Below, one piece after another: positions 5,793-22,562 of a stretch of DNA of 64,000 nt (position 1 is the first letter of the stretch; each line of letters starts with the position of its first letter). A program made the position numbers and the translations under genes. The DNA comes from Bradyrhizobium viridifuturi. Lineage in GTDB: Bacteria > Pseudomonadota > Alphaproteobacteria > Rhizobiales > Xanthobacteraceae. Location: positions 186,001 through 250,000 of the forward strand of contig NZ_LGTB01000003.1 of assembly GCF_001238275.1 (NCBI RefSeq). Direction: 5' to 3'. The notes under the pieces are model-generated. The model ran no database searches, was not told where the DNA came from, and worked only from the letters and a program-made list of their open reading frames with translations.

Positions 5793-8918
<3,126 letters not shown>

Positions 8919-15225: not shown

Positions 15226-15552
15226 TCTGATGATCTCCCCATTTCGCCCGTCCCAAAGCCGAAATGAGACCCCGCTGCGTGTCCACACCGGGGCAAAAAA
15301 AGGGAATCTTCGGGCATCAGGGGGCAAAAGCTGGGCAATTTCGTCCCAGCAGGTGTTCGGCGGCCGCAGCCCCGATGCTTGTCGGACCGATCGGTGTTAT
15401 GAGCCGTGACGTCTGCAAACCCGCCGGAGCGATTCTCAGAGCCCGATCTCCGGCGCGGCCTGGCCGGAGGACCGCGATCACGAATTCGTGATGTTCTGGG
15501 TTGGCCGCGTAACGAACTGAAAGATCGGCCGAATTGCAATTCAGGAGCCTGC

Positions 15553-16098
15553 GTGCGCGAACGTGAGGATGAATGGACCGACCTGATGCGGTCGGCCATT
15601 TCTGGCGATGACGCGGCGTATCATCGCTTGCTCAAGGCCATCACGCCGGTACTCCGTGCCGCGGCGCGACGCGGCCTGGCGCGCGCGGGACAACCGGTCG
15701 ATCAGTCCGAGGACATCGTGCAGGACATCTTGTTGGCGGTGCATTTGAAGCGACAGACCTGGGACACGAACGCGCCGTTCGCGCCGTGGCTGTTCGCGAT
15801 CGCGCGCAACAAGCTGATCGACGCGCTGCGCCGCCGCGGCAAGCGCATCTTCGTCAACATCGATGACTTCGCTGAAACGCTACCGGGGGAAACGCCGGAG
15901 CCGACGGCATCGCCCGGTGAGGTCACCGCCCAGCTCCAGGCGCTACCGCCGCGTCAGCGCGACGTGCTGCAATCGATCGCGGTCGACAGCACCTCGATCA
16001 AGGACACCGCGGCGAAATTCTCGATGACCGAGGGCGCGGTGCGGGTCGCGCTGCATCGCGGGCTTGCGAGCCTCACCGAGAAATTACGGGATCGTTGA
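15553..16098 (+). CDS. ECF-type RNA polymerase sigma factor (NrsF-linked)
   Basis: The 181-residue protein has region 2 (about 15-85: LARAGQPVDQSEDIVQDILL and FAPWLFAIARNKLIDALRRR) and region 4 (about 125-180: LQALPPRQRDVLQSIAVDS, with the helix-turn-helix FSMTEGAVRVALHRGLASL). The GTG at 15553 is placed 5 bases after an AGGAG site and is preferred over the upstream ATG at 15406, whose extra 49 residues match no sigma factor. The next gene, 2 bases downstream, encodes its likely membrane-bound anti-sigma factor of the NrsF type. Such pairs respond to envelope or redox stress in alphaproteobacteria; the signal here is unknown. Confidence 0.9.
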   Translation: MREREDEWTDLMRSAISGDDAAYHRLLKAITPVLRAAARRGLARAGQPVDQSEDIVQDILLAVHLKRQTWDTNAPFAPWLFAIARNKLIDALRRRGKRIFVNIDDFAETLPGETPEPTASPGEVTAQLQALPPRQRDVLQSIAVDSTSIKDTAAKFSMTEGAVRVALHRGLASLTEKLRDR

Positions 16099-16100
16099 GC

Positions 16101-16739
16101 ATGGATACGGATCAACTCATTCGAACCCTTGCCGCCGACAATGCCTATCGCGCACGCCCGATCGGTCTGGCGCTGATGCTGGCGCTGCTGGCGGCGGCGC
16201 CGGTCTCGCTGCTGATCTTCTTCGCCGAGCTCGGCGTGCGGCCCGACGTGATGACCGCGATGCATAATCCGTTCTTCGATCTGAAATTCGCGGTGACCCT
16301 GGCGCTCGCCGCCTCGGCGATCGCGGTCAGCCTGCATCTGTCGCGGCCGGAAGCCTCGCTGCGCAGTTTCGGCTGGTGGCTGCTGATTCCCGCCGGCATC
16401 CTCGTTGCCGCGATCAGCGGCGAGATGATGATGCCGCAGCGTACGCCGATGATGACGCGCCTGATCGGCAAGAACTCGATGGCGTGCATGACCGCGATCC
16501 CGGCGATGTCGTTGCCGCTGCTGGTCGGCGCGCTGTACGGGCTCAGGCAGGGTGCGCCGGCGCGGCCGGCGGTGGCCGGCGCGGTGGCCGGCCTGCTCTC
16601 GGCCGGGCTCGCCGCAACCGTCTATGCGTCGCATTGCACCGATGACTCGCCGCTGTTCGTCGCCACCTGGTATACGCTGGCGACCGCGATCGTCGCGAGC
16701 GTCGGCGCGCTGATGGGGAAGCGGGCGTTGCGGTACTAG
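16101..16739 (+). CDS. NrsF family (DUF1109) anti-sigma factor
   Basis: The 212-residue protein is almost entirely membrane: six hydrophobic segments (for example LALMLALLAAAPVSLLIFF, FAVTLALAASAIAVSL and LLIPAGILVAAISGEMMM). This is the DUF1109/NrsF architecture: a short cytoplasmic N-terminus (MDTDQLIRTLAADNAYR) followed by a six-helix bundle. NrsF proteins hold their ECF sigma factor inactive at the membrane. Two cysteines (in NSMACMTAI and YASHCTDDSP) are in places where redox sensing has been proposed for the family. A TTG at 16095 overlapping the sigma stop is an alternative start. The two genes clearly form one operon. Confidence 0.88.
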   Translation: MDTDQLIRTLAADNAYRARPIGLALMLALLAAAPVSLLIFFAELGVRPDVMTAMHNPFFDLKFAVTLALAASAIAVSLHLSRPEASLRSFGWWLLIPAGILVAAISGEMMMPQRTPMMTRLIGKNSMACMTAIPAMSLPLLVGALYGLRQGAPARPAVAGAVAGLLSAGLAATVYASHCTDDSPLFVATWYTLATAIVASVGALMGKRALRY

Positions 16740-19531: not shown

Positions 19532-20101
19532 TTGAGCGCGACACAGGCGGCTTCAGACGAGGTTCTGATCGCTCGGATCGCTCAAGGCGACCGGCTCGCC
19601 ATGCAGGTGCTGTACGGACGGCATCATGTCAGGGTGTACCGCTTCGGGCTTCGGCTCGTGCGGGACGAACAGGTGGCGGAGGATCTCATCAGCGAGGTCT
19701 TTCTGGACGTGTGGCGTCAGGCGGGCAAGTTTGAGGGACGATCCGCCGTTTCAACCTGGCTTCTGGCGATTACCCGGTTCAAGGCGTTGTCCTCGCTGCG
19801 GCGAAGGAAAGACGCCGAACTGGACGATGAGGCCGCGAACGCGATCGAGGATACGTCCGACGATCCGGAAACGGTGGTGCAGAAGAAGGACACCGGCGCG
19901 ACGCTGCGTAAGTGCCTGACGGGACTATCAGCGGAACACCGGGAGATCGTCGATCTTGTCTACTATCACGAGAAATCCGTGGAAGACGTCGCTGAGATCG
20001 TCGGGATTCCGGAGAACACCGTGAAGACGCGCCTGTTCTATGCGCGCAAGAAACTTGCCGAGTTGCTGAAGGCAGCCGGTGTCGAGCGAGGTTGGCCATG
20101 A
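19532..20101 (+). CDS. ECF-type RNA polymerase sigma factor
   Basis: A standard 189-residue group IV sigma factor. Region 2 spans about 10-90 (VLIARIAQGDRLAMQVLYG; RDEQVAEDLISEVFLDVWRQ; STWLLAITRFKALSSLRRR). Region 4 spans about 125-180 (LSAEHREIVDLVYYHEKSVE; VGIPENTVKTRLFYARKKL). The TTG start at 19532 follows GAGACGG and gives a normal N-terminus (MSATQAASDEVLIAR). Its stop overlaps the next gene's ATG (ATGA), so sigma and anti-sigma are translationally coupled. The neighbouring genes, an anti-sigma and a secreted S8 protease, suggest an envelope-facing regulon. Confidence 0.93.
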   Translation: MSATQAASDEVLIARIAQGDRLAMQVLYGRHHVRVYRFGLRLVRDEQVAEDLISEVFLDVWRQAGKFEGRSAVSTWLLAITRFKALSSLRRRKDAELDDEAANAIEDTSDDPETVVQKKDTGATLRKCLTGLSAEHREIVDLVYYHEKSVEDVAEIVGIPENTVKTRLFYARKKLAELLKAAGVERGWP

Positions 20102-20853
20102 TGGCTGCGAGCAACAAGAAGGTGCAGGGTCAGGAACCTGACGATGTCGAGATGCTGCTGCCCTGGCACGCGGCCGGCACGCTGAACGCGCGCGACGCGC
20201 GCCGCGTCGAGGACGCGCTCGCGTCCGATCCGGAGCTGGCCCGGCAGTATGCCGTCATCCGCGAGGAATATGCCGAGACCATCGGCCTCAACGAGAGCCT
20301 CGGTGCGCCCTCGGCGCGCGCCATGCAGAAGCTGTTTGCTGCGATCGATGCCGAACCGGAACGCAAGCCATCGGCAGGTGCACGCATGTCGGCCGGGATC
20401 TCGGAGTTCTTTTCCAAATTGTCGCCGCGGACGCTGGCCTGGTCGTCCAGCCTCGGCGCGCTCGTGGTGCTGTTGCAGGCCGGCGTGATCGGCGCGGTGC
20501 TGATGCGCAGCCAGCCGGCTTCGTTCCAGACCGCCTCGCTCGACGTCGCTGAACAGCGCAGCGCGCCAAGCGCGGCCGTTGCACCTTCCAGCCCTGCGCC
20601 CAGTGCGCCGATCACCCGCGACCTCGGTGCCAGCGTGGCTGCAACGCCGACACGGCTCTTGGTGCGCTTCACGCCGGACGCCAGGATCGCCGACATCACG
20701 TCGCTGCTGGAGAATTACCAGGGCTCGATCGTCGACGGGAAGGGCGGCATGTTCCGGTTGCAGTTCCGCGCGATGGACAAGGACGGCGTCGCGTCGCTGA
20801 TTGCCCGCTTGCAGAAGGAGAAGATCGTCAGCCTCGCGGTGGAGACACCGTAG
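20098..20853 (+). CDS. Anti-sigma factor with propeptide-like periplasmic domain
   Basis: The 251-residue protein has three parts. A cytoplasmic helical part (about 1-95) opens with DVEMLLPWHAAGTL, like zinc-finger-type anti-sigma domains but with no Cys ligands. One membrane segment follows (about 120-142, SLGALVVLLQAGVIGAVLM). After an Ala/Ser/Pro linker, the periplasmic domain (about 180-251) reads TRLLVRFTPDARIADITSLL, ENYQGSIVDGKGGMFRLQF and KEKIVSLAVETP. That pattern (an RFxPdA start, helix, GxIVDGxxxGxxRL, then an ending with a VxxVE-like strand) resembles propeptides of subtilisin-like proteases. The next gene encodes such a protease with a similar propeptide of its own. The sigma link is well supported by overlap; the propeptide likeness is my reading of the pattern and has not been tested. 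Confidence 0.82.
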   Translation: MMAASNKKVQGQEPDDVEMLLPWHAAGTLNARDARRVEDALASDPELARQYAVIREEYAETIGLNESLGAPSARAMQKLFAAIDAEPERKPSAGARMSAGISEFFSKLSPRTLAWSSSLGALVVLLQAGVIGAVLMRSQPASFQTASLDVAEQRSAPSAAVAPSSPAPSAPITRDLGASVAATPTRLLVRFTPDARIADITSLLENYQGSIVDGKGGMFRLQFRAMDKDGVASLIARLQKEKIVSLAVETP

Positions 20854-20890
20854 ACTGCGGCTGACGGTGCTGCGCCGACTTGAGGTCACC

Positions 20891-22562
20891 ATGACCGCCA
20901 ACGGCCGGACCAGATCGACGAACAGAGCGGCCGTCGCGGCCGCGGCGTTGCTGCTGGTTTGCCTGTCCGGTTCGGCCTACGCCCAGAATTTCATGCGATC
21001 GCCGATCAGCGGTGGGCCACAAATGTCGCCCGGGCCGCAGGTCAATCTCGGAATCGGCAGGGCCGGTGGAGGGTTCGGCGGCACCACTGGCCGCACGCCG
21101 CTCTCGGCGGACCGCGGCCCGGCTGCGTCTTGGACCGGCGAGGGGCCGCGATCGGGAATGCGGCCGCCCAATGCACGCGACGCGCCTCGTTTCTCCGCTG
21201 GCTGCGACGACGGCGACCGCGGCCAATGCTCCGACCGGCCGGTCGCCGGCAACGGTGGCGGCAAGGGCGCAGCGAGGAAGGGCAGGGCCGGCGGTGGCGG
21301 CACGCGCGCGCAGGACGTGGCGGGCACGCGAACCGTGCCGAACGAACTCGTGGCGGAGATCGACGGCGCCTTGACCGAGGCCGAGACCGATGCGCTCGCG
21401 CGCCGCCATGGCCTGAGGCGGATTGCCTCGCAGAATATCCCGTTGCTCGGGGCGACCGTCGGCCTGTTCCGCATGGCCGGCAATCGCTCGGCCGATGCCG
21501 TGAGCCGCGAATTCGCAAACGACAGCAGCGTCCGCTCCGTGCAGCCGAACTACCGTTACGCGCTGCAGGACCAGAACACGCCATCTGGCGGCAATGATCC
21601 GGCGCTATATGCGCAGACGCAGCTGCATCTGCCCGAGGCGCACCGGCTGGCGCGCGGGATGAATGTCACTCTTGCCGTCATCGATTCCGGCATCGACGCC
21701 GCGCATCCGGAACTGGCGAACACGGTCGCGGATACGTTCGATGCGCTCGGCAGCAAGGATGGCCCGCACGCCCACGGCACCGCCATCGCCGGCGCGATCG
21801 CAGCGCGCGTCCGGCTGACGGGGAGCGCGCCGGAAGTGCGGATCCTGGCGATCCGCGCCTTCGGTGCGGTTGCCGGCGGCGCCGAGAGCACGTCCTATGT
21901 GATCCTCAGGAGTCTCGACCACGCGGTGGCGCACGGCGCGCAGATCGTGAACATGAGCTTTGCCGGACCGAAGGATGCACTTGTCGAGCGCGCCGTGGCG
22001 GCCGCTGCTGCGAGCGATGTCGTGCTGGTCGCCGCGGCCGGCAATGCCGGCCCGAAATCACCGCCGCTGTATCCGGCCGCTATCCCGACGTAATCGCCGT
22101 GAGCGGGATCGATGCCGGCGGACGGCTCATGGCGGCATCGAACCGCGGCAGCCATATCGCGCTGGCGGCGCCGGGCGCGACATTCTCGTGCCGGTGCCGG
22201 ACGGCAAGTACCAGCTGATGTCGGGCACCTCGTTTTCGGCCGCGTTCGTCAGCGGCATCGCGGCGCTGGTGCTGGAGCGCAGTCCGGCTTTGAAGCCTGC
22301 CCAGGTGAGAAGCATCCTGACCAGCACGGCCCGCGATCTCGGGACACCTGGGCGCGACGATCTGTTCGGGGCCGGGGAGGCGGATGCGCTTGCCGCGGTG
22401 ATGGCGGCGACCAGCGCGCCCGTCGCGTCGGCCGTGGACAATCCGCCGCAGCCCGCGCCGGCGCCGGACGGCAATAACACTTCCGTGAGCCGCGCGTTGA
22501 ACGAAGGCGCGCCGTCGGTCGCATCTGATGATTCCGCTGCAAATCATCGGGCTGCACAGTGA
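20891..22562 (+). pseudogene. Secreted S8 (subtilisin-like) serine protease, two frameshifts
   Basis: Corrected for two missing bases this encodes about 557 residues. A Sec signal (AAVAAAALLLVCLSGSAYA) leads into a Gly/Pro-rich linker. A propeptide follows (VPNELVAEIDGALTEAETDA; SSVRSVQPNYRYALQDQN). The catalytic domain carries Asp in TLAVIDSGIDAAHPEL (about 264), His in DGPHAHGTAIAGAIAAR (about 294), Asn in AAAGNAGP and Ser in MSGTSFSAAFVSGIAAL (about 448). The frame breaks at GGCCGCTATCCCG (about 22077-22082) and again at GGGCGCGACATT (about 22174-22180). Adding one C at each restores YPDVIAVSGIDAGG and APGADILVPVPDG. The whole triad is present across frames, so the gene may be intact in the organism. 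It follows the anti-sigma gene by 37 bases and likely shares its operon. Confidence 0.85.

Follow-up and report, generated by a model that had tools for sequence, protein, structure and literature searches.

A subtilase prodomain-like sensor domain on a membrane anti-sigma factor of Bradyrhizobium: a possible protease-triggered sigma switch

A 64,000-nucleotide stretch of the draft genome of Bradyrhizobium viridifuturi (contig NZ_LGTB01000003.1, positions 186,001 to 250,000; hereafter the window; whole genome, 8.8 Mb in 152 contigs) encodes, in this order on the + strand, an extracytoplasmic function (ECF) sigma factor, an anti-sigma factor and a secreted S8 subtilase. The second of these is a membrane anti-sigma factor with a new kind of sensor, a C-terminal domain that resembles the prodomains of subtilases. 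Gene order, the predicted fold of the domain, its profile relation to subtilase prodomains, the phylum-wide linkage of the domain to protease genes and the lack of a tail behind the domain are consistent with a protease-triggered sigma switch, in which the S8 protease would dock on the prodomain-like domain, cut the linker of the anti-sigma factor and start sigma release. Resting on sequence and computed models, this proposal is tentative, and we give it somewhat less than an even chance.

The sigma gene (19532..20101, +) has a TTG start and encodes 189 amino acids; the product exceeds the cut-offs for Sigma70_r2 and r4_2 and matches the NCBIfam model NF009168 over residues 1-189 of 189 (E 1.2e-104). 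The anti-sigma gene (20098..20853, +), the start of which overlaps the sigma stop, encodes 251 amino acids. Its N-terminal part matches zf-HC2 weakly (0.046 in the Pfam scan), and the NCBIfam anti-sigma model NF052375 gives 34.2 bits, under its cut-off. No cysteine is present in the window's anti-sigma factor, which thus lacks the zinc motif of ZAS anti-sigma factors. The sigma gene alongside and a single predicted membrane helix are those of a membrane-bound ECF anti-sigma factor, even with N-terminal models that are weak and below their cut-offs, and the protein is predicted to bind and restrain the sigma factor. In particular, residues 118-136 (20449..20505, +) form the best hydrophobic 19-residue stretch of the protein (mean Kyte-Doolittle (KD) hydropathy 2.22) and would span the membrane; they are followed by an Ala/Pro/Ser-rich linker, residues 137-185 (49 residues; 20506..20652, +), and by the prodomain-like domain, residues 186-251 (20653..20850, +), which ends at its last strand. 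Given this order of helix, linker and domain, together with what is known of such anti-sigma factors, the C-terminal domain would face the periplasm. A sequence-only reading of the window had described a trio of sigma, anti-sigma and S8 protease genes at this place, and the sigma and anti-sigma frames, their family matches and a protease gene beginning at 20891 bear it out.

The same reading had likened the anti-sigma factor from about residue 180 onwards to a subtilisin propeptide. The start is now placed at residue 186 and the end at 251, and a propeptide topology is predicted: from an alignment of 56 anti-sigma domains, AlphaFold returned the order beta-alpha-beta-beta-alpha-beta (pLDDT 91.5), a fold not unlike that of a propeptide. 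The prodomain of the partner protease was predicted in the intact protein of Bradyrhizobium sp. CER78 (locus L053), the anti-sigma factor of which is 97% identical to that of the window, and follows the same order (E150-159 H165-174 E177-185 E190-197 H203-211 E216-227). Of the 56 domains, 14 have a match to PF22148, the subtilase prodomain family of the fervidolysin type; every other Pfam family matches two at most. When ten domains were scanned singly, four matched PF22148, three of them over its gathering score of 21 bits (23.9, 29.0 and 27.5). Alignment of the 56 domains with 27 partner prodomains by hhalign gave a score of 26.5 and a probability of 57.8%; after shuffling of the columns (100 runs) the maximum was 17.3, and the reversed alignment scored 11.6. 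The resemblance between domain and prodomain exceeds chance. Moreover, a search of 12113 open frames with the domain profile hits an S8 protein of 1406 residues (L217) at residues 200-231, ahead of its catalytic part, with an E of 2.4e-4; in the reverse search, the prodomain profile found no anti-sigma factor. Inspected by eye, the later part of this S8 protein (L217:5092-9309) contains an HExxH motif like that of thermolysin, and the protein therefore perhaps joins two proteases in one chain.

The domain is also linked to protease genes outside Bradyrhizobium. The anti-sigma factor is present in all 36 genus genomes examined, that of the window included. Outside the genus, a first survey took profile sites from two genome samples, one of the class (385 genomes) and one of the phylum (398 genomes), plus five further sites, 79 in all. 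It omitted G049, where the contig ends within the anti-sigma gene and an S8 gene lies upstream, G051, which the profile does not match, G036, where the matched protein is itself an S8 protein, and all Bradyrhizobium. An S8 gene lay within 2.6 kb at 42 of 47 sites with the domain vs 5 of 32 without it (Fisher p 2.4e-11, which is not a true probability because sites share ancestry). The S8 gene was downstream on the same strand in 38 of the 42 cases, upstream in two and divergent in two; the linkage persists through changes of gene order. A second survey covered two further orders (250 and 200 genomes) and examined 60 loci of 104 places, the places outside the 60 being mostly weak N-terminal matches; five more were added later. 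Four genomes with a match that reaches the domain (G1063, G1121, G1162 and G1027) were left out of the counts, and seven sites shared by the two surveys were counted once. The domain was found at 50 of these 60 loci, 44 of them with an S8 gene (one seen with wider flanks); none of the ten loci without the domain had one within flanks of 1.5 kb or less. Outside Bradyrhizobium, therefore, the 95 sites with the domain comprise 85 with S8, five with a gene of the caspase family (Peptidase_C14) and five with neither, while related anti-sigma factors without the domain adjoin S8 genes at 5 of 42 sites. In keeping with the sequence-only reading, anti-sigma factors of this type seldom occur away from a protease gene. 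Protein relatives of two of the surveyed anti-sigma factors include those of Tahibacter, Dokdonella and Roseateles as well as those of Kiloniella, Sneathiella and Curvivirga.

The domain and the PF22148 prodomains share the order of the fold and, in relatives, the profile match. Unlike those prodomains, which lie N-terminal to an S8 catalytic domain, it forms the C-terminal end of a membrane anti-sigma factor and carries no tail. In pro-subtilisin, the residues following the last strand sit in the active site. Such a tail is absent from the window's anti-sigma factor, the chain of which ends at the last strand, whereas the protease model continues past E216-227. Among 196 distinct domain matches, of which the S8 protein L217 is one, the chain continues past the domain end by a median of 0 residues and by more than seven in six, one of the six being an S8 protein. 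Because the domain ends without a tail to plug the active site, docking and a cut in the linker are preferred over inhibition, and docking would fit the modelled domain better.

Since the domain resembles a prodomain and an S8 gene adjoins it at 85 of 95 sites, the protease probably docks on it. The partner proteases, which retain their own prodomain, also speak for this, with a catalytic Asp, His and Ser that are invariant or nearly so (D266, H296 and S449, invariant in 27 aligned proteases). Beyond linkage and homology, we infer the following steps. The secreted protease would shed its own prodomain and then dock on the domain of the membrane anti-sigma factor as on its own prodomain. The enzyme would be held by its surface with the active site free, since the domain has no tail, and the docked protease would make the first cut in the flexible linker, presumably within residues 137-185. 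An intramembrane protease would complete the release of sigma, which would in turn drive the protease gene. Where the protease has been lost, another protease or another signal may act, or the switch may remain shut.

A parallel is offered by RsiV, the anti-sigma factor of sigma V of Bacillus subtilis, which in the available portion of PMC5014341 is described as binding and inhibiting lysozyme, with binding required for site-1 cleavage. A two-cut scheme is given as general for such anti-sigma factors in the accessible part of PMC10202637, a part that makes no mention of subtilisin or the S8 family. RsiV is likewise a membrane anti-sigma factor with an outer domain that binds an enzyme, as the domain of the window's protein would here. 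It differs in its sensor domain (a Pfam scan of the window's anti-sigma factor to E 10 gives zf-HC2 only) and in that the enzyme sensed, lysozyme, is no protease; moreover, the genes of enzyme and sensor stand side by side in the window. Site 1 of RsiV is reportedly cut by signal peptidase, going by the title of a cited reference.

The domain might instead be a tethered inhibitor or titration sensor. It would bind free protease and keep it at the membrane, and binding would alter the shape of the anti-sigma factor in the way that lysozyme alters RsiV; the first cut would then fall to another protease. Its homology to inhibitory prodomains agrees with this, as do the precedent of RsiV, which both senses and inhibits lysozyme (PMC5014341, same portion), and the stand-alone propeptide-like subtilase inhibitor of Plasmodium SUB1 (PMC6993865, in the part available). 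The latter is also a prodomain-like protein that acts in trans on a subtilase; it differs in that, by the title, it inhibits its protease, and no anti-sigma link appears in that part of the source. The scarcity of residues past the domain (median 0), which leaves nothing to enter the active site, makes inhibition or titration quite unlikely.

Several observations weigh against a switch that is triggered by the docked protease. The fold itself is, as predicted, the common ferredoxin-like one found in unrelated families, and neither Foldseek nor VIA-align told propeptides apart from structures of ACT, Lrp or ribosomal S6. The window's own domain, scanned alone, has no PF22148 match, so that its tie to prodomains is through its alignment with its family. 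The protease gene of the window (20891..22562, +; Peptidase_S8 in two pieces) runs from an ATG at 20891 through three reading frames in this assembly, 20891-22087, 22024-22185 and 22173-22559, as traced by tblastn with the intact L053 protease; both frame breaks lie within 22077..22185 (+), the frames meeting at 22024-22087 and 22173-22185. The sequence-only reading had an adjacent secreted subtilisin-like protease with a propeptide. The S8 assignment stands, as do the signal-peptide-like N-terminus read from the sequence (residues 1-31; 20891..20983, +) and, with a PF22148 match of 17.4 bits that is below the cut-off of 21, the prodomain (21311..21550, +), the fold order of which is predicted in the intact relative (17.1 bits in L053); a single open frame does not. 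Another S8 match of this genome (G000:C58:5153-6153) is also split, over two open frames, and the splits therefore reflect either draft frame errors or subtilase decay in this genome.

Losses elsewhere in the genus point the same way. From 320 confirmed matches the 80 best were kept, almost all of them labelled Bradyrhizobium. The protease is in one frame with all three catalytic motifs at 71 of these 80 named loci; of the other nine, six have none, two a partial gene and one runs off the contig end. Of the 79 loci that can be read, 8 thus have an incomplete protease gene or none, and it was not seen in G003 (L051) either. A short 3' remnant is apparently left, as read by eye, in several of the six loss loci. 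In Bradyrhizobium ivorense CI-1B (L071, about 6800-7700), a transposase-like sequence, also read by eye, replaces most of the protease gene. The anti-sigma factor is kept at all loci without an intact protease. Thus, the protease has been lost repeatedly in Bradyrhizobium with the anti-sigma factor retained, and it is dispensable there. Like the missing tail and the commonness of the fold, this limits the model of the sequence-only reading, in which the protease would bind or cut the domain and so release sigma; that model is supported in part.

Outside the genus, five of the ten domain sites without S8 are linked to a gene of another protease family, Peptidase_C14, and four more are second copies, which speaks for the switch. 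Such genes lie near the anti-sigma factor with the domain at L236:2753-3553, L190:2-658 and L192:3927-5942 (Pfam), L193:2-1501 (motif scan) and L310:4922-5848 (site L257/L310; profile). The last is the only independent match to the C14 profile, because that profile was built from L236, L190, L192 and L193. No site had both S8 and C14 among the loci scanned for both. C14 proteins are not known to have such a prodomain, and yet their genes adjoin the same domain. The loci L190 and L193 each hold a further anti-sigma-like frame that carries the domain, beside a sulfate-permease-like gene. The five sites with neither protease are in G394, G836, G1200, G810 and G877; the first four are second copies in genomes where the other copy has S8. 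Conversely, anti-sigma factors without the domain stand beside S8 genes at L199, L202, L204, L226 and L228, four of the five divergent, and that of L228 bears a 17 kDa surface-antigen domain (PF16998) in place of the prodomain-like one. As these five show, sigma switches are linked to S8 genes more widely than through this domain. A strict model, in which every such anti-sigma factor needs its S8 gene, is ruled out by the Bradyrhizobium losses and by the C14-linked and orphan copies.

Selection on the anti-sigma factor was compared between ten proteins with a lost or broken protease, each set against its nearest intact relative, and 69 intact pairs. The pooled ratio of nonsynonymous to synonymous change (dN/dS) was 0.16 for the sigma-binding part, 0.38 for the helix, 0.39 for the linker and 0.26 for the domain where the protease was lost or broken, vs 0.17, 0.12, 0.24 and 0.20, respectively, in the intact pairs. 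The sensor side may thus be somewhat relaxed after loss; the domain is clearly kept, under purifying selection (0.26 vs 0.20). Relaxation as a consequence of protease loss was not adopted as a result: the change has the expected direction but is small, and the branches are shared with intact sisters. Covariation was examined in 61 non-redundant pairs of 219. Beyond what sigma accounts for, the distances of the domain and of the catalytic domain showed no association (partial correlation 0.075, null maximum 0.16; a weak test with 61 pairs), while the N-terminal part of the anti-sigma factor and the catalytic domain slightly exceeded theirs (0.162, null maximum 0.154). With the N-terminal part taken into account, domain and catalytic domain gave 0.218, a figure without a null. 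Selection and covariation together speak against a tight one-to-one bond.

Alternatively, domain and protease may share no more than a regulon. The S8 gene would then be the main target of the sigma factor, and the domain, descended from an ancient prodomain, would serve for dimerization or, with its ferredoxin-like fold, sense a different signal. The commonness of the fold, the S8 genes beside domain-less anti-sigma factors (5 of 42), the retention of the domain after protease loss and the lack of covariation between domain and catalytic domain beyond sigma all suit this explanation. It accounts poorly for the way in which linkage tracks the domain (85 of 95 sites that have it and 5 of 42 that lack it) and for the resemblance of the sensor to the prodomain of exactly the neighbouring enzyme's family, and it is considered unlikely.

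Subtilase prodomains serve as folding helpers, and the domain might thus assist or report the folding of the secreted pro-protease, with sigma answering to unprocessed enzyme. That partner proteases retain their own prodomain cuts both ways: it agrees with such a sensor, but a prodomain is also already at hand. The C14 linkage does not fit, and a folding or maturation sensor is very improbable.

Should docking and cutting by the S8 protease be correct, a protease-inhibitor module would have been recast as a gene-control sensor with which the cell reads out its own secreted protease, and the enzyme that makes the first cut would be identified for sigma switches that occur widely. The C14-linked versions would then be a natural experiment on one sensor changing its protease partner. 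On the whole doubtful is the wider proposition that a widespread proteobacterial class of anti-sigma factors took over the subtilase prodomain as a sensor of a co-encoded protease, its dedicated first cutter, and that some lineages swapped this protease for a caspase-family enzyme while the sensor was kept. With three neighbouring genes, a domain of 66 residues and one secreted protease, the proposal is easy to test.

A related setting is that of the ECF54 sigma factors, which in the available part of PMC8999054 are described as surrounded by subtilase and CHAT genes and as acting without an anti-sigma factor, with proteolytic control proposed. Subtilase and caspase-related genes in the sigma context and proposed control by proteolysis are common to both (PMC8999054, same part). 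Compared by description only, ECF54 differs in being described without an anti-sigma factor, whereas an anti-sigma gene with a prodomain-like sensor is present here. The available part of PMC7406223 makes no mention of subtilisin or propeptides, and no description of a prodomain-like anti-sigma sensor was found in the open-access literature searched, a search outside which most subscription journals lie and which does not show absence from print.

Upstream of the sigma gene, an alignment of 75 sequences contains conserved blocks. One pattern taken from these blocks occurs exactly in the promoter region of the sigma gene and, at two mismatches, at six other places of the same genome, vs one for the backward control; no regulon is claimed from the pattern. 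Elsewhere in the window, a sigma-like gene (15406-16098, +) is directly followed by a small gene (16095-16739, +) with several hydrophobic stretches in its product; judged by sequence, the two genes (15406-16739) may form a second sigma/anti-sigma pair, one of another type.

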